Assembly: GCA_014376915.1 (NCBI GenBank)
Contig: JACMQP010000003.1
Span: 1-7,892, forward strand
DNA length: 7,892 bases
Reading direction: 5' to 3'
Source: Ramlibacter sp.
Lineage (GTDB): Bacteria > Pseudomonadota > Gammaproteobacteria > Burkholderiales > Burkholderiaceae
Made by a program: the position numbers and the translations under genes. Numbering within the stretch: the stretch's first letter is position 1; every line of letters starts with the position of its first letter. Below are positions 1 through 7,892 of the stretch, piece after piece. Under the pieces are notes generated by a model, which worked only from the letters and a program-made list of their open reading frames with translations, did not search any database and was not told the DNA's origin.

Positions 1-131
1 CCAGCCTGCCGGTGCTGAACACCAACTTCGGCAACCAGTTCCTCGCCGCGATGAACGGCAGCATCACCGTGGCTGAAGCGCTGGCGCGGGCCGAGCGGGC
101 CAGCAACCGAGAAATCGAGCGTCAGAAGTGA
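1..131 (+). CDS. C-terminal end of probable sugar ABC transporter substrate-binding protein (5' partial)
   Basis: Only the last 42 codons are present, read in the frame starting at base 3 and ending with TGA at 129-131. The visible tail contains TNFGNQFLAAMNGSITVAEAL followed by a charged helix ending in EIERQK. An aromatic/Asn-rich turn, then a helix with a T-V-x-E-A-L pattern, is typical of the last helices of extracellular solute-binding proteins of family 1, which carry sugars to CUT1-type permeases in the periplasm. The position directly before two MalF/MalG-type permeases supports this more strongly than the short sequence does. Its stop overlaps the next start by one base (TGATG), so translation is probably coupled. 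The substrate cannot be read from this fragment; the trehalase at the end of the operon suggests trehalose or a related disaccharide. Confidence 0.72.
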   Translation, partial: SLPVLNTNFGNQFLAAMNGSITVAEALARAERASNREIERQK

Positions 132-1024
132 TGACTATTTCTAGGACCACCAACCGCGATGCCGCCACTGCCTGGGCCTTCCTCGCGCCCACGCTGGCCA
201 TCGTCACCCTGTTCACCTTGCTGCCCGCGCTGTTCGCGCTGTACGCCAGCTTCCACAAGATGGACATCGTCTCGGGCCAGGCGAGCTGGGCGGGGCTGAA
301 GAACCTCGACTACCTGCTCGACGACGACAAGTTCTGGGCCGCCTGCCGCAACACCGCGCGCTACGTGCTCATCGTCGTGCCGACGCAGACGGCGCTGGCG
401 CTGGCGCTGGCCTGCGTGCTGAACGGCCAGGTCAAGTTCAAGCGCGGCTTCGTCACGCTGCTGTTCCTGCCCACGCTCACCTCGTCCGCCGCGATGACGA
501 TGATCTTCATGTGGCTGTTCAATAACAACGGCCTGGTCACGCAATACCTGCAAGAGCATTTCGGCATCACCATCCGCTTCCTGTCCGACCCGGCCTGGGC
601 GCTGCCCATCATCATGATGATGAATGTGTTCTCCACCGTGCCGCACTTCATGGTGGTGTTCCTGGCGGGCTTGCAGGACGTGCCAAAAAGCCTGTACGAG
701 GCGATGACGCTCGACGGCGCAGGCCCGGTCGCCCGCCACTGGCACATCAGCGTGCCGCAGCTGATGCCGATCACGTTCTACGTGCTGACGATGGGGCTGA
801 TCGGCTGCTTCCAGGTGTTCGACCAGGCCTTCATCATGTCCGGCGGCGACGGCGGGCCCGAGGATTCGACGCTCACCTTCACCCTGCTGATCTACCACTT
901 CGCGTTCAAGACCTACAACACGATGGGCCTGGCCTGCGCGCTGGCCGTGGTGCTGACGCTGATCATCCTGGCGGCGACCACGCTGCTCAATCGGTTCGTG
1001 AAATCGGATGGGGTGAACGCATGA
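131..1024 (+). CDS. Sugar ABC transporter permease, MalF/UgpA type
   Basis: This 297-residue protein is an inner-membrane subunit of a CUT1-type carbohydrate importer and would pair with the next gene product to form the channel. About six hydrophobic segments can be seen, near residues 14-38, 73-97, 105-130, 158-180, 212-234 and 263-288. The cytoplasmic EAA loop, which docks on the ATPase, starts at Glu190 (EAMTLDGAG) and ends with ISVP at 206-209. Length and layout fit the short UgpA-like permeases rather than enterobacterial MalF, which is much longer. I chose the ATG at 131 because it overlaps the upstream stop by one base; a GTG one codon earlier (128) is possible. The 3' end overlaps the next gene by four bases (ATGA), which points to translational coupling within one operon. 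Family assignment is secure; the sugar is inferred from the context. Confidence 0.93.
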   Translation: MTISRTTNRDAATAWAFLAPTLAIVTLFTLLPALFALYASFHKMDIVSGQASWAGLKNLDYLLDDDKFWAACRNTARYVLIVVPTQTALALALACVLNGQVKFKRGFVTLLFLPTLTSSAAMTMIFMWLFNNNGLVTQYLQEHFGITIRFLSDPAWALPIIMMMNVFSTVPHFMVVFLAGLQDVPKSLYEAMTLDGAGPVARHWHISVPQLMPITFYVLTMGLIGCFQVFDQAFIMSGGDGGPEDSTLTFTLLIYHFAFKTYNTMGLACALAVVLTLIILAATTLLNRFVKSDGVNA

Positions 1025-1874
1025 GCGCCGTGGCGAACAGCAAGCGACAAAAGCGCTTTGGCGAACACGTGGCCAGCTTCGGCCTGCACGGCTTCCTCGT
1101 CTTCTACGGTGTGCTCACGCTGATCCCTTTCGTGTGGGCCGTCCTCACCTCGCTGAAGAGCCTCAACGAAATCGCCACCAGCGACGCGATCTTGCCGGTG
1201 GCGCTGAACCTCGGGGCCTACAAGCAGATCTTGCAGAGCCAGTTCAGCACCTGGTTCTTCAACTCGATGAAGGTGGCGTTGATCGTCACCGTCACCAGCG
1301 TGTTCGCCAACACCCTGGCCGGCTATGCGCTGGCGCGGCTGCGTTTCGTCGGGCGGGGCGGGGTGTTCCAGGCGTTGCTGCTGATCATCATGGTGCCCTC
1401 GCAGGTGACGATGATCCCGGCCTACTTGGTGGTGGCGCGGCTGGGCTTGGCCGACACGCACACGGCGCTGGTGCTCACCTCGGTGGTCAGCATTGCCTCG
1501 ATCTTCATGATGCGGCAGTTCTTCATCCACTTCCCCAGCGACGTGGAAGAAGCCGCCAAGCTCGACGGCTGCTCGCCCATCGAAACCTTCGTGCGCATCG
1601 TGCTGCCGATGGCGCTGCCGGCATTGGCGACGCAGGCGATCTTCATCTTCATGGGCGTGTGGAACGAGTTCATGAAGCCACTTCTCTACATCAGCAGCGT
1701 GGACAACTACATGCTCACGCAAGGCCTCAACGCCGCCGCCAAGCAGTATGAGAAATCGGCCGCGTGGAACGTGATCATGGCCGGCAGCATCGTGTCCATC
1801 GTGCCGATTTTGCTGATCTACATCGGCCTGAACAAGTATTTCGTCAACGTCAACGACCAGACCGCAGGCTCCAA

Positions 1875-1878
<4 letters not shown>
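1021..1878 (+). CDS. Sugar ABC transporter permease, MalG/UgpE type
   Basis: This 285-residue protein is the second membrane subunit of the importer. Hydrophobic segments lie near residues 22-42, 81-103, 115-137, 148-170, 195-219 and 250-272. The EAA loop is well preserved: EEAAKLDG begins at residue 176, and the conserved Gly is followed by IVLP at 193-196. The stretch GYALARLRF at 101-109 and the motif GVWNEF at 212-217 are typical of MalG-like permeases. The start ATG overlaps the stop of the preceding permease by four bases, and its own stop overlaps the ATPase start by four bases. Such back-to-back ATGA junctions indicate one transcript with coupled translation, keeping the subunits in balance. 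The protein is of normal length and shows nothing broken. Confidence 0.94.
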
Positions 1879-2987
<1,109 letters not shown>

Positions 2988-4508
2988 GATGCGCGGCACG
3001 TTGTTCGCCGAGGTGCAAATGGCGGGCCTGTTCGACGACGGCAAGACCTTTGCCGACGCCTGGCCGCGCCGCGGCGATCACGGTGATTTGGAGGCGCTGT
3101 ACGAGGCGCAGAAGCACGCGCCGGGCTTCTCGCTCGCCGCCTTCGTCGCCAGCCACTTCGCGCTGCCGCCCAAGGTGATCGTGTCTGTCGCCACGCGCCT
3201 GCCGATTGACAAGCACATCCGCGCCCTTTGGCCCCAGCTTACCCGGCCGGCCGAAGATCCCGGCGATCCCGGCCTGCTGCCGCTGCCCCACCCTTACGTC
3301 GTGCCCGGCGGCCGTTTCCGCGAGCTGTACTACTGGGATTCGTACTTCACCCTGTTGGGCCTGCTGGCCGATGGCGAGCAGGCATTGGCCGAGGGCATGG
3401 TGGCCAATTTCGCTCACCTGATCGACACCCTGGGCCATGTGCCCAACGGCAACCGCCGCTACTTCCTCAGTCGCTCGCAGCCGCCGTTCTTCGCGCTGAT
3501 GGCCGAGGCCATCGGCCAGATCGCCCGCTACCTGCCCCAACTCAAGCGCGAGCATGGGTTCTGGATGGGCGGCAGCCGAGCGGTGCGCCTGCCCGACGGC
3601 AGCCTGCTCAACCGCTTCTGGGACGCGCTGGACACCCCGCGCGACGAAGCCTGGCGCGACGATGTGCTGACCGCCCGCGAGCGGCCGGACCGGCCAGCCG
3701 GCGAGGTCTACCGCGCGCTGCGCGCCGGGGCCGAGTCGGGCTGGGATTTCAGCAGCCGCTGGTGCCGGGGTGACCCGCTCTCGTTGGCTGCCATCGACAC
3801 CCCCGCCTTTGCGCCGATCGACCTGAACAGTCTGCTCTGGCACCTGGAGCGCAGCATCGCCGCCGTCGAGCCCGACGCCGCCACCGCCGCCGAATTTGCC
3901 GCGCGCGCCGCTGAGCGCCTGCGCGCCATCGACCGCCACCTCTGGAACCCGGAGCGCCAGCATTATGTCGATGCGCTGTGGCAAGAGGGGGGTCGAGGCC
4001 GCCACTGCGACATTCTGACCGCCGCCACTGTCTCTCCCCTCTTCGTCGGCCACGCCAGCGCCGCGCAGGCCGACGCCGTTGCCGCCGTCGTCGAGCGGGA
4101 ACTGCTCCATCCGAACGGCCTAGCCACCACCCTTGTCAATTCGGGCCAGCAATGGGACGCCCCCAATGGCTGGGCACCGCTGCAATGGATGGCTGTCATA
4201 GGCCTGCGCCGCTACGGCCACGATGCGTTAGCGGCCGACATCGCCACGCGCTGGCTCGGCACTGTCGAGCGAGTCTTTGGTGCCACCGGCCGCTTGCTTG
4301 AAAAATACAACGTCGAACACGACCTCCCCGGCGGCGGCGGCGAATACCCAACACAAGATGGCTTCGGCTGGACGAATGGGGTGTATCTGGCATTGCGGAC
4401 GTTCTACCCGGCTTCACCGCTCACAACCCTGCCACACACTTAACCCGCACCGATACAGCCACCATGCCCGGCAACGACGACTGACATCGATTCTGTGATT
4501 GACGACAA

Positions 4509-4745
4509 TTACCTTGGCCAAGATAGTTGACGCCGACCACGTTCAAAGCCAACAGCCGCTGAACAGGGGTCCACTGGCCGGCCGGCACGTCGCCGGGCAG
4601 GGCGCGATCTCTTGAGCCAGCCCTTCAGCGTTCCCAAGGACATATTCAGCTCAGTAGCCACCGATTCCAAGGTCCGTGAACCACGCGCCCTGGCCTTGCT
4701 CAGTGCCTGCTCAATGAACTCTGGGGAATGTTGCTTCTTTTGCAT
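4509..4745 (-). pseudogene. Truncated, frameshifted transposase OrfA remnant (IS3-like helix-turn-helix protein)
   Basis: The minus-strand frame from ATG at 4745-4743 encodes a helix-turn-helix N-terminus: SPEFIEQAL (7-15), then ESVATELNMSLGTLKGWLKRS (27-47). This looks like the first ORF of insertion sequences common in Burkholderiales. After codon 47 the reading frame turns into Arg/Pro-rich low-complexity protein and stops at 4511-4509. In the neighbouring frame from about 4603 down to 4541, however, the sequence reads DVPAGQWTPVQRLLALN, which I recognise as the continuation of this OrfA type. So a frameshift or small deletion lies near 4601-4608. Homology ends near 4541; the rest of OrfA and the DDE transposase ORF are missing. 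It is a dead remnant, not a functional gene. The IS family name is from memory of similar proteins and is less certain than the transposase call. Confidence 0.72.
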
Positions 4746-4747
4746 TT

Positions 4748-4794
4748 GTTGTCGCTCCGGCGCGGATCATCCGCGTGAAAGGGGAGGCGACAAC
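4748..4794. repeat. Nested inverted repeat upstream of the transposase remnant
   Basis: GTTGTCGC at 4748-4755 is the exact reverse complement of GCGACAAC at 4787-4794. Inside it, CGCGGA at 4761-4766 faces TCCGCG at 4770-4775 across a three-base loop. The structure ends two bases before the start codon of the minus-strand OrfA remnant, so in the intact element it would have lain in the 5' leader of the transposase message. It could be an IS-borne control hairpin or part of a transposon end. No poly-T run follows on either strand, so it does not look like an intrinsic terminator. Confidence 0.5.
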
Positions 4795-4795
4795 T

Positions 4796-4986
4796 AGTCT
4801 GACGCAGGGGGTATTTGTGGCAGTGAGAAGCTGAGATTCGAAGTTGGAGCTCTTCATCCGCTGGTCTAGCTTGTGGCGCCGGGTTGACAATCCGCGACAC
4901 CGACCCCCCGTCTAGCCGAGTCGGGTCACGCCTCCAGACTTCGCATCTCCCCTTCAAACGCCCGCCTTCTCGCTGGCTGTTACCCC
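4796..4986. other. Non-coding gap before the NRPS gene, no convincing signals
   Basis: This stretch has no credible protein-coding frame on either strand; the open frames crossing it lack recognisable motifs and shadow the NRPS gene. It may be the outer non-coding end of the IS remnant joined to the native upstream region of the NRPS gene. A TTGACA hexamer at 4884-4889 resembles a -35 box, but no acceptable -10 box lies 16-18 bases downstream. GTCTAGC occurs twice (4864-4870 and 4910-4916), 46 bases apart, with no known meaning. The NRPS promoter should lie here or in the IS remnant, but I cannot place it. Confidence 0.4.
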
Positions 4987-4995: not shown

Positions 4996-7892
4996 ATGAC
5001 GACCACGACCCCGAGCCCCACAGCCATCCTGCGCGGGCCGCAGCAGCCCGAGCTGCTGCGCGAAGAGACTCTGGCTGACCTGTTCGAGCACACTGCTGCC
5101 CATCAACCCAAGCAACCGGCGCTGATCTTCGGTGACCGCCAGTTGAGCTACGGCGAGCTTGACGCCCTGGCCAATGCGGCAGCCCATCGCCTGATCGATG
5201 GCTACGGGGTGGGCCCGGGAATGATCGTCGGTCTTTGGCTGCCTCGCAGCATCGAACTGTTGGTGCTGCAGCTAGCCATCGCCAAGACCGGCGCCGCGTG
5301 GCTGCCGCTGGACGCACAAACGCCGGCTGATCGCGTGCTGACCTGCCTTGCAGACGCCCAGGCCGTGGCCGTAGTGACCGACGACCTGACCCACCGTGGC
5401 CTTGAGCCGATGTCTGAGGGCGTCAGCTTGATCGCTGCCCAAACCCTGTGCGCGCCGCTGCTGCCAAGTGCCGTGTTGCGACATCGCTCGGGCTCCAGCC
5501 CGGCCGACACCGCCTACGTCATCTACACGTCGGGTTCGACCGGCAAACCCAAAGGCATCGCGGTTTCGCAGCGCAGCATCTGCCACTTCCTTCGCAGTGA
5601 AAACGCCCGGCTCGGCATCCAGGCGAGCGACCGCGTCTACCAGGGCTTTTCGGTCGCCTTCGACATGTCCTTCGAGGAGATTTGGATCAGCTATCTGGTG
5701 GGCGCCACCCTGTGGCTAGGCCCTGCCGAAGCGGCCGGCGATCCGGACTTGCTGCCGCGGTTGCTGGCCGATCACGGCGTCACCGTGCTGCATGCCGTGC
5801 CTACGCTGCTGGCGCTGTTTGCGCAGGATGTGCCCGGGTTGCGCATCGTCAACCTGGGCGGGGAGATGTGCCCGGCGGCCCTGGTGGACCGGTGGGTACG
5901 TCCGGGTCGTCAGGTGTTCAACACCTACGGACCCACCGAGACCACCGTCTCGGCCAGCCTGGCCGAGTTGCGTACCGGCCAAGCCGTGACGATCGGCCGC
6001 CCGCTGCCCAACTATGTGTTGATGGTGATCCACCCAATCGACGAAGACGCCTGGGCCGAAGGCACACCGGCGCCGCTTCGACTGCTGCCGCCCGGTGAGA
6101 CCGGCGAGCTTTGCATCGCAGGGCCGGGTGTGGCCCAGGGCTACCTGGGCCGGCCGGACCTGACAGCACGCAAGTTCTTGCCCAACCCCTGGGCCGAGGG
6201 CGACGCTGAAGCCCGGCTGTACCGCACCGGGGATCTGGCCTGCATCAATACCGACGGCCAGGTGCAGTGCCTGGGACGCACGGACGACCAGGTCAAGATC
6301 CGCGGTTTTCGCGTCGAGATGGGCGAGATCGAGGCCGTGCTGTCACAGCAGGCGGGCGTGGGTACTGCAGCGGTGCTGCTGCGGCCCGAGGACGGCGTCG
6401 ACCACCTGGTGGCCTACCTGGTGTCTGCCACCGGTGCCGCGCCGACCGACGCTGCCACACTGCGCAAGGCGCTGGCGACCCAGTTGCCGCCCTACATGGT
6501 GCCTACGCACTTCGAGTGGCTGGCAGCCATGCCACGCATCCCTTCCGGGAAAATCGACCGCAAGGCGCTGCGCGCGCTGCCGCTGGCCCCGCGCCCGGCT
6601 GCGGATTCCGATGCGCCTGAATCCCCGGCCGAGCAGGTGTTGTTCGCTGCCCTGCTGAGGCTGTTCCCAGGCCAGACGCTGCGCCGCGACCTGGACTTCT
6701 TTCGCGACTTGGGCGGCCATTCGCTGCTGGCCGCACGCCTGGTTTCTGCGGTGCGCGCCGACCCGCGCTTCAGTCACGCCACGGTGCGCGACATCTACCG
6801 GCTGCGCAGCCTGGGCGCACTTGCCTCAGCGTTGCAGGAGCAGGCCGATACTGCTCAGGCCGCTGCGGCCAGCGGCCCTGCAGTGGCCGAGCGGCCCTTC
6901 GTGCTGCATTCGGCCTGGCGACGCTGGCGCTGCGGCCTGGCGCAACTGGCCGTCAGTCCGTTGCTGGTGCTGCTGAAGATGGCGCAGTGGCTGGCCCCCT
7001 TCTTCACGTACCACTTCTTCACCGGCGAGCCTGACGACTCGATCGTCTTTGCAGTGCTGATGTCGACGCTGATGTTCCTGTTGTCGACGCTGTTGGAGTT
7101 TGCGGTCGCCTGGGCCGGCAAGTGGCTGATCGCCGGGCGGCTGAGCGCCGGCAGCTACCCGCTGTGGGGCTGGGTCTATTTCCGCTGGTGGCTAGCCGAC
7201 CGGTTGGTGGATGCCGCGCCCACCTACATGATCGCCGGTACATCCCTGTACGTGGGATGGTTGCGCGCGCTGGGCGCGCGCATCGGCCGCGACGTGATCG
7301 TCGGCTCGATCACCCTGCGCGTGCCGGAATTGCTAACGCTGGGCGATGGCACCAGCGTGGGCAATGCGGTGAACCTGGAGAACGCGGTGGTGCAGGGTGG
7401 CATGCTGCATCTGGGTCGCATCGAGATCGGCCGCGAATGCGCGATCGGATCTTTCAGCGTGCTCGAAGGCGACGTCGCCCTCGGCGACGGCGCGCACTTG
7501 CGCGGCCAGACGGCGCTGAGCCGTGGCGAGCGCGTGCCGCCATGTCGCATCTGGGCCGGTTCGCCCGCCCAAGACATCGGCGCGGACGACCCCGCCTTGC
7601 GGCCTGCCCGGCCGCCGGTAACGAAGTCCCGTCGCGCGGGCGAGGCCATTTTCTTCTTGGTAGGCGCGCTGGCCGTGGCCGTCGCCTTCTTTCTGCCGGT
7701 ATTCCCCGCCTTCATGCTGATCGACAGCCTGGACGTGTCGGAATTGGGCGTGCAGCCGTTGCTGGACGACGGCTCGATCACAGCTTGGCAGGCCTTCCTG
7801 CTGCGCCTGGCCAAGTTTTTTGCTCTGGCCATGCCGGCCAGTGTGGTGCTGATCGCCCTGACGGTGCTGCTGTCAGCAGGCATCCGCTGGGC
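4996..7892 (+). CDS. Pls/PosA-family membrane nonribosomal peptide synthetase (3' partial)
   Basis: The visible 965 residues form a single NRPS module fused to a membrane part. The adenylation domain spans about 25-525: YTSGSTGKPKG (177-187), NTYGPTE (309-315), YRTGDL (409-414), GRTDDQVKIRGFRVEMGE from 427, and SGKIDRK with Lys519. A carrier-protein domain follows (about 541-615), with LGGHSLLAARL and the phosphopantetheine Ser576. Then come hydrophobic segments (about 647-670 and 681-714), a left-handed beta-helix, hexapeptide-like domain (about 757-858, with IGRDVIVGS, LGDGTSVGN and IGRECAIGS), and more hydrophobic segments (884-909, 933 to the edge). No classical condensation domain (HHxxxDG) or thioesterase is seen. 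This A-T-membrane order matches epsilon-poly-lysine synthetase (Pls, about 1300 residues), which joins one amino acid repeatedly using unusual tandem C-terminal domains; roughly a quarter may lie beyond the window. The product cannot be proven; pocket residues suggest a basic amino acid. No stop codon interrupts the frame. Confidence 0.9.
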   Translation, partial: MTTTTPSPTAILRGPQQPELLREETLADLFEHTAAHQPKQPALIFGDRQLSYGELDALANAAAHRLIDGYGVGPGMIVGLWLPRSIELLVLQLAIAKTGAAWLPLDAQTPADRVLTCLADAQAVAVVTDDLTHRGLEPMSEGVSLIAAQTLCAPLLPSAVLRHRSGSSPADTAYVIYTSGSTGKPKGIAVSQRSICHFLRSENARLGIQASDRVYQGFSVAFDMSFEEIWISYLVGATLWLGPAEAAGDPDLLPRLLADHGVTVLHAVPTLLALFAQDVPGLRIVNLGGEMCPAALVDRWVRPGRQVFNTYGPTETTVSASLAELRTGQAVTIGRPLPNYVLMVIHPIDEDAWAEGTPAPLRLLPPGETGELCIAGPGVAQGYLGRPDLTARKFLPNPWAEGDAEARLYRTGDLACINTDGQVQCLGRTDDQVKIRGFRVEMGEIEAVLSQQAGVGTAAVLLRPEDGVDHLVAYLVSATGAAPTDAATLRKALATQLPPYMVPTHFEWLAAMPRIPSGKIDRKALRALPLAPRPAADSDAPESPAEQVLFAALLRLFPGQTLRRDLDFFRDLGGHSLLAARLVSAVRADPRFSHATVRDIYRLRSLGALASALQEQADTAQAAAASGPAVAERPFVLHSAWRRWRCGLAQLAVSPLLVLLKMAQWLAPFFTYHFFTGEPDDSIVFAVLMSTLMFLLSTLLEFAVAWAGKWLIAGRLSAGSYPLWGWVYFRWWLADRLVDAAPTYMIAGTSLYVGWLRALGARIGRDVIVGSITLRVPELLTLGDGTSVGNAVNLENAVVQGGMLHLGRIEIGRECAIGSFSVLEGDVALGDGAHLRGQTALSRGERVPPCRIWAGSPAQDIGADDPALRPARPPVTKSRRAGEAIFFLVGALAVAVAFFLPVFPAFMLIDSLDVSELGVQPLLDDGSITAWQAFLLRLAKFFALAMPASVVLIALTVLLSAGIRW

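Follow-up and report, generated by a model that had tools for sequence, protein, structure and literature searches.

A Ramlibacter gene cut short by its contig end very probably encodes a PosA-type delta-poly-L-ornithine synthetase

The 7,892-nucleotide stretch of Ramlibacter sp. contig JACMQP010000003.1 analyzed here (the window) ends within a posA-like gene, and the sequence of its product indicates that it is very probably a PosA-type delta-poly-L-ornithine synthetase, cut short at the 3' end. The features of the gene, all on the forward strand, are as follows.

4996..7890 (+), posA-like gene, 965 of ~1360 aa (open reading frame [ORF]; TIGR01733 and TIGR02353; full-length homologue P0002)
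5083..6552 (+), adenylation domain (AMP-binding and AMP-binding_C), residues 30-519, with the A10 lysine K519 (Pfam)
5662..5952 (+), amino acid pocket D223 M224 E227 H266 N286 G288 T310 V318 S319 (alignment to PosA of locus L081; PosA residues from PMC10522769)
6640..6831 (+), carrier domain, residues 549-612 (Pfam PP-binding, 22.1 bits, cut-off 20.8; motif DLGGHSL)
6940..7890 (+), predicted Pls/PosA membrane polymerization domain, first 317 residues, with transmembrane (TM) pair 1, first beta-helix and TM pair 2 (TIGR02353, hydrophobic segments, homologous fold of L020)
7222..7611 (+), predicted first left-handed beta-helix (C1), limits approximate (transferred by eye from the L020 model via the common AWRRWRCG motif)

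The posA-like reading frame (4996-7890) is open through all 965 codons and runs to the right edge, where it is stopped by the contig end at 7892. In the window protein, the NCBIfam model for amino acid adenylation, TIGR01733, matches residues 51-460 with 391.9 bits (cut-off 317.4), and the Pfam families AMP-binding, AMP-binding_C and PP-binding all score over their cut-offs, giving a domain order (TIGR01733, PF00501, PF13193, PF00550) of adenylation followed by one carrier domain; Hexapep falls under its cut-off. The A10 lysine K519 and the phosphopantetheine site of the carrier (Ser576, codon 6721-6723, in the DLGGHSL motif at 571-577) are K and S, respectively, in 344/344 aligned family members. 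The NCBIfam terminal-domain model TIGR02353 matches residues 649-965 (profile positions 2-301 of 695) with 270.1 bits, which is under the cut-off of 423.1, as would be expected of a protein ending inside the domain. Weak matches to this model say little: at E <= 0.001 a match occurs in 13 of 14 control genomes, and four genomes have additional weak matches of 22 to 37 bits. The 270 bits of the window protein are far above this background. Among the 14 control genomes, Corynebacterium glutamicum has a TIGR02353 match over the cut-off. A simple hydrophobicity scan marks four segments in the terminal part (651-669, 682-700, 885-903 and 941-959), as well as two within the adenylation domain (77-95 and 143-161). 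HHxxxDG, a motif of condensation domains, was not found in the window protein, and at E <= 0.001 Pfam matched no condensation or thioesterase family in either the window protein or its full-length homologue P0002.

The part of the protein beyond the right edge was judged through a homologue. The protein search scored 7,991 candidates, 7,943 of them at E <= 1e-50 (a count in which other adenylation-domain proteins may be present), with the top 120 listed; relatives among these matches already carry the source name Pls/PosA family, and most of the listed entries are nameless. P0002 (1360 aa), with 90% identity across all 965 window residues, matches TIGR02353 over positions 2-695 with 791.2 bits (cut-off 423), so the missing C-terminal part of the window protein is almost certainly of the Pls/PosA type, judging from this homologue and not from the window itself. 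A further homologue, P0003, listed as Ideonella sp., is 82% identical. The first-pass annotation, made from the letters of the stretch, had described a Pls/PosA-type membrane nonribosomal peptide synthetase (NRPS) with a full adenylation domain, one carrier with Ser576 and no standard condensation or thioesterase domain, and had named a Pls-unrelated continuation past the right edge as counter-evidence; the features it described are borne out, and the homologue P0002 does not show such a continuation.

Ornithine is suggested as the substrate by the adenylation pocket. Aligned to PosA of Acinetobacter baumannii strain VB958 (locus L081, the residues of which agree with the numbering in PMC10522769), the window protein has equal residues at 9/9 pocket positions, so the window gene very probably makes an ornithine chain too. 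PosA prefers L-ornithine over L-lysine by >160-fold in kcat/KM, and its products are delta-linked ornithine chains of 7 to 12 units (PMC10522769). Among 124 aligned proteins (the window protein, PosA, P0002-P0120, L082, L083 and L084), the pocket reads DMEHNGTVS in 116 and DMEHNGSVS in 5, and the three outgroups L082-L084 deviate. In a FastTree phylogeny of 344 aligned proteins (the window protein, L081-L084 and 339 of the 359 proteins P0002-P0360, retained at 1250-1450 aa with 20 left out by length), the window protein and PosA lie in one clade of 116 members with support of 1.0, and every member has the pocket DMEHNG(T/S)VS. The two proteins are 53.0% identical over 907 aligned residues and 61.1% in the adenylation core, and PosA (PDB 8G95-8G98) resembles the window protein in its domain order, in its TIGR02353 terminal domain as far as the window protein reaches, and in its pocket and clade. 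In a PDB sequence search the PosA adenylation domain matches with 497.8 bits in one stretch and Pls with 247.4; two-module gramicidin synthase chains total 505 bits, with at most 259 per module.

The first-pass annotation had taken Pls of Streptomyces albulus as its model, and by this analogy the window gene would be an epsilon-poly-L-lysine synthetase, a reading that is very improbable. Pls (PDB 7WEW is its adenylation domain, a weaker match to the window protein than that of PosA) shares its family and domain order with the window protein, having an adenylation domain, a carrier and a six-TM terminal domain with C1-C3 (PMC8117764, PMC10522769), and PosA activates lysine weakly (PMC10522769). 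However, the length-setting pocket position (Met218 in PosA) is Met in PosA, Ala in lysine enzymes, Pls among them, and Phe in diaminopropionate enzymes (PMC10522769), and the window protein has Met224 there; it shares a clade with PosA, and PosA gave no lysine polymer in vitro in the account of PMC10522769. The appropriate model is PosA, with ornithine and a delta linkage. The pocket shared with this ornithine enzyme (PMC10522769) agrees, as a prediction from sequence, with a substrate that is not neutral or acidic, as the first-pass annotation had assumed.

Other Pls/PosA-type proteins differ from the window protein more widely. The Leu-type (Rhizobium, Azospirillum) and Phe-type (Streptomyces) proteins L082-L084 are of similar length and all three are annotated as Pls/PosA family, but their pockets are DLEDIG(S/T)VV and DFECLSAVT, their identity to the window protein is 38-44%, and they fall outside the PosA clade. 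Proteins found with the Rhizobium query (P0241-P0360) have DLED-type codes in all pockets shown, and L082 and L084 are likewise of the Leu/Asp type; DLED-like codes are listed as signatures unique to Rhizobia, Methylobacterium and other groups (PMC10522769). Proteins found with the Streptomyces query are DFE-type in all but one of the pocket types shown. On the Streptomyces plasmid of L083 (2911-9213), the Phe-type Pls/PosA gene has behind it genes for a diaminobutyrate transaminase family protein and an aspartate kinase, and the locus looks like a diaminobutyrate polymer cluster.

Several points weigh against the assignment of the window gene as a delta-poly-L-ornithine synthetase. The pocket code is a prediction and no proof, and no assay of any enzyme from this Burkholderiales clade was found in the open-licence PMC literature searched. 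PosA itself, besides its weak activation of L-lysine, activates D-ornithine well (PMC10522769), and a Bdellovibrionales relative with a different pocket activated arginine modestly and no known diamino substrate, of four, better (PMC10522769). The tree sequences are the best hits of three queries, a sampling that limits how far the clade borders can be trusted. Finally, the protein's last third lies outside the window and may carry a lesion.

The distribution of posA-like genes is patchy. A scan of genome contigs gave 435 encoding stretches, of which 80 were kept (L001-L080); by title these are mostly from Burkholderiales (Comamonas, Ottowia, Massilia, Collimonas and others), and the remainder include Rhodocyclales-type genera, three Pseudomonas and several metagenome-assembled genomes titled just Proteobacteria or Pseudomonadota. 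The TIGR02353 cut-off is passed in 16/300 genomes of the order of L002 (its own genome among the 16), and a window-like protein at E <= 1e-200 is present in 28/399 genomes of the family of L020 (the genomes of L020 and L068 among the 28).

A recurrent feature of these loci is a transferase-like gene downstream of posA. In 73 of the 80 loci the 3' end of posA is complete and is followed by 1 kb or more of sequence (the other 7 were not assessable), and in 51/73 a protein of one family, ~205 aa and encoded on the same strand, starts at most 400 bp downstream; it lies within 3.5 kb in 4 more and none was found in 18, as counted with a hidden Markov model (HMM) built from 29 of the very proteins counted, which match by construction. 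Both Roseateles loci, L020 and L068, carry the gene. Pfam PF01648 applied to three family members gave no match for L015, a match over the cut-off for L010 and one under it for L004, and the NCBIfam AcpT and HetI models match 4/4 other members, far under their cut-offs. In the Rhizobium locus L084 the downstream gene (8035-8652) is annotated as a phosphopantetheinyl transferase and is over the PF01648 cut-off. From these profile matches, the family can fairly be assigned to the 4'-phosphopantetheinyl transferase superfamily as a group, which is not proof for every member. In A. baumannii, PosA is a single-gene operon (PMC10522769), in contrast to the 51 of 73 related loci, mostly betaproteobacterial by title, with the transferase-like gene directly downstream; in L081, with 1.8 kb of room downstream, the transferase HMM found none.

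These components suggest how synthesis would begin. The adenylation domain would activate L-ornithine with ATP, as shown for PosA and as the pocket of the window protein predicts, and the ornithyl group would be loaded onto the phosphopantetheine of Ser576, as the carrier motif suggests; in many relatives this phosphopantetheine is probably installed by the transferase encoded just downstream. It is unlikely, though somewhat less so than a lysine polymer, that a related enzyme here yields a different isopeptide from ornithine or a close analogue, such as a short oligomer, a capped chain or a chain joined to another molecule. This would be compatible with one Pls/PosA-type gene lying within a larger hybrid cluster (PMC13291983), and no product report for this clade was found in the open-licence PMC literature searched; against it, neighbor clustering (crude longest-ORF gene calling, with families listed from 5 loci upward) shows, beyond the transferase-like family, a commonest other neighbor family in 11 loci.

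For a homopolymer synthetase of the PosA type, the chain would be made by the membrane domain, the fold of which was modeled for the Roseateles protein L020. The predicted terminal domain is built of three pairs of long helices and three blocks of strands (predicted local distance difference test score, 94.4), and model residues 102-231 (C1) appear acyltransferase-like in a structure comparison with re-ranking, which covered mainly these residues. Relative to the trimeric hexapeptide acyltransferases (type B chloramphenicol acetyltransferase 6pu9 and serine acetyltransferase 3mc4), the model has three copies in one chain with a TM helix pair before each, and the acyl donor would be a carrier-bound amino acid instead of acyl-CoA. 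No solved Pls/PosA terminal domain is among the matches listed by Foldseek (50) or by sequence search (48), and one may exist elsewhere. The motif QTHLFEDR is nearly invariant and belongs to the third of the membrane domain's beta-helices, beyond the window; it is the best candidate for the active site.

For the product, the first-pass annotation had offered an antimicrobial, a surface polymer or a stress protectant as possible roles. In the source bacterium it is, at best guess, an antifungal or anti-competitor polymer, because a synthetic 12-mer of delta-poly-ornithine inhibited three fungi and had minimal activity against two Gram-negative bacteria (PMC10522769). A more far-reaching proposal, advanced tentatively and with more doubt than confidence in the whole, is that Betaproteobacteria and some Pseudomonas carry a patchy, perhaps mobile, two-gene cassette of posA and its own phosphopantetheinyl transferase, making delta-poly-L-ornithine as a standing antifungal or surface polymer, and also that the polymerase is a fused acyltransferase beta-helix pseudo-trimer that has kept the catalytic His (in QTHLFEDR) in the third beta-helix only, with one active site per chain.

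Upstream of posA, the window (128-4443, +) codes for what is, by its predicted products, an ordinary set of genes for sugar uptake and trehalose breakdown: two UgpA/UgpE-like permeases, one MalK/UgpC-like ATPase, and a trehalase that scores 443 bits with Pfam Trehalase and 518.4 bits with the NCBIfam TreF model (cut-off 512). A functional link between these genes and posA was considered and is not supported by the neighbor clustering, in which the window families present in at least 5 loci are posA itself and the ABC ATPase (5 loci, window included), with trehalase in none of that size. Between trehalase and posA sits an IS3-like remnant, consisting of a 78-aa fragment (4509-4745, -) that resembles the helix-turn-helix part of a transposase (PF01527, E 5.5e-4, 20.6 bits, under the cut-off of 24.1) and of DNA at ~4750-4811 with 80.6% similarity to Polaromonas plasmid DNA that is annotated as an IS3 family transposase. 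Two overlapping sigma-70-like patterns (4481-4527, +) lie ~470-515 bp upstream of posA; 0.1 would be expected, and both are consensus matches only, with 9/12 positions each. The remnant, together with the unseen 3' end, would be consistent with a posA gene disrupted or unexpressed in its source organism, yet this is very unlikely, with every codon in the window open, the pocket, carrier Ser and A10 Lys intact, and close relatives full length.

Pls has reportedly been known since 2008. The kind of enzyme described here is also known from Gram-negative bacteria, PosA having been published in 2023 (PMC10522769), the family is named by NCBI's own model, and a 2026 paper names this NRPS type NAPAA (PMC13291983). 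The proposal in the first-pass annotation of a cationic homopolymer or short isopeptide from a proteobacterium is supported as a reading, but with PosA characterized and relatives already named as Pls/PosA family, its novelty is smaller than was suggested. No paper on a betaproteobacterial Pls/PosA member was found in the open-licence PMC literature, and among Gram-negative cationic homopoly-amino-acid synthetases in the literature found, PosA alone has a product that is proven, the Bdellovibrionales adenylation domain having been assayed without one (PMC10522769). The value of the window gene lies in the large uncharacterized betaproteobacterial clade that it represents, in culturable environmental bacteria such as Comamonas, Ottowia, Massilia and Collimonas, among others, which would allow tests of the production, secretion and role of delta-poly-ornithine in harmless strains. 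The frequent transferase neighbor leads to a concrete hypothesis on carrier priming, and the His motif, a testable candidate active site, to another on chain formation.
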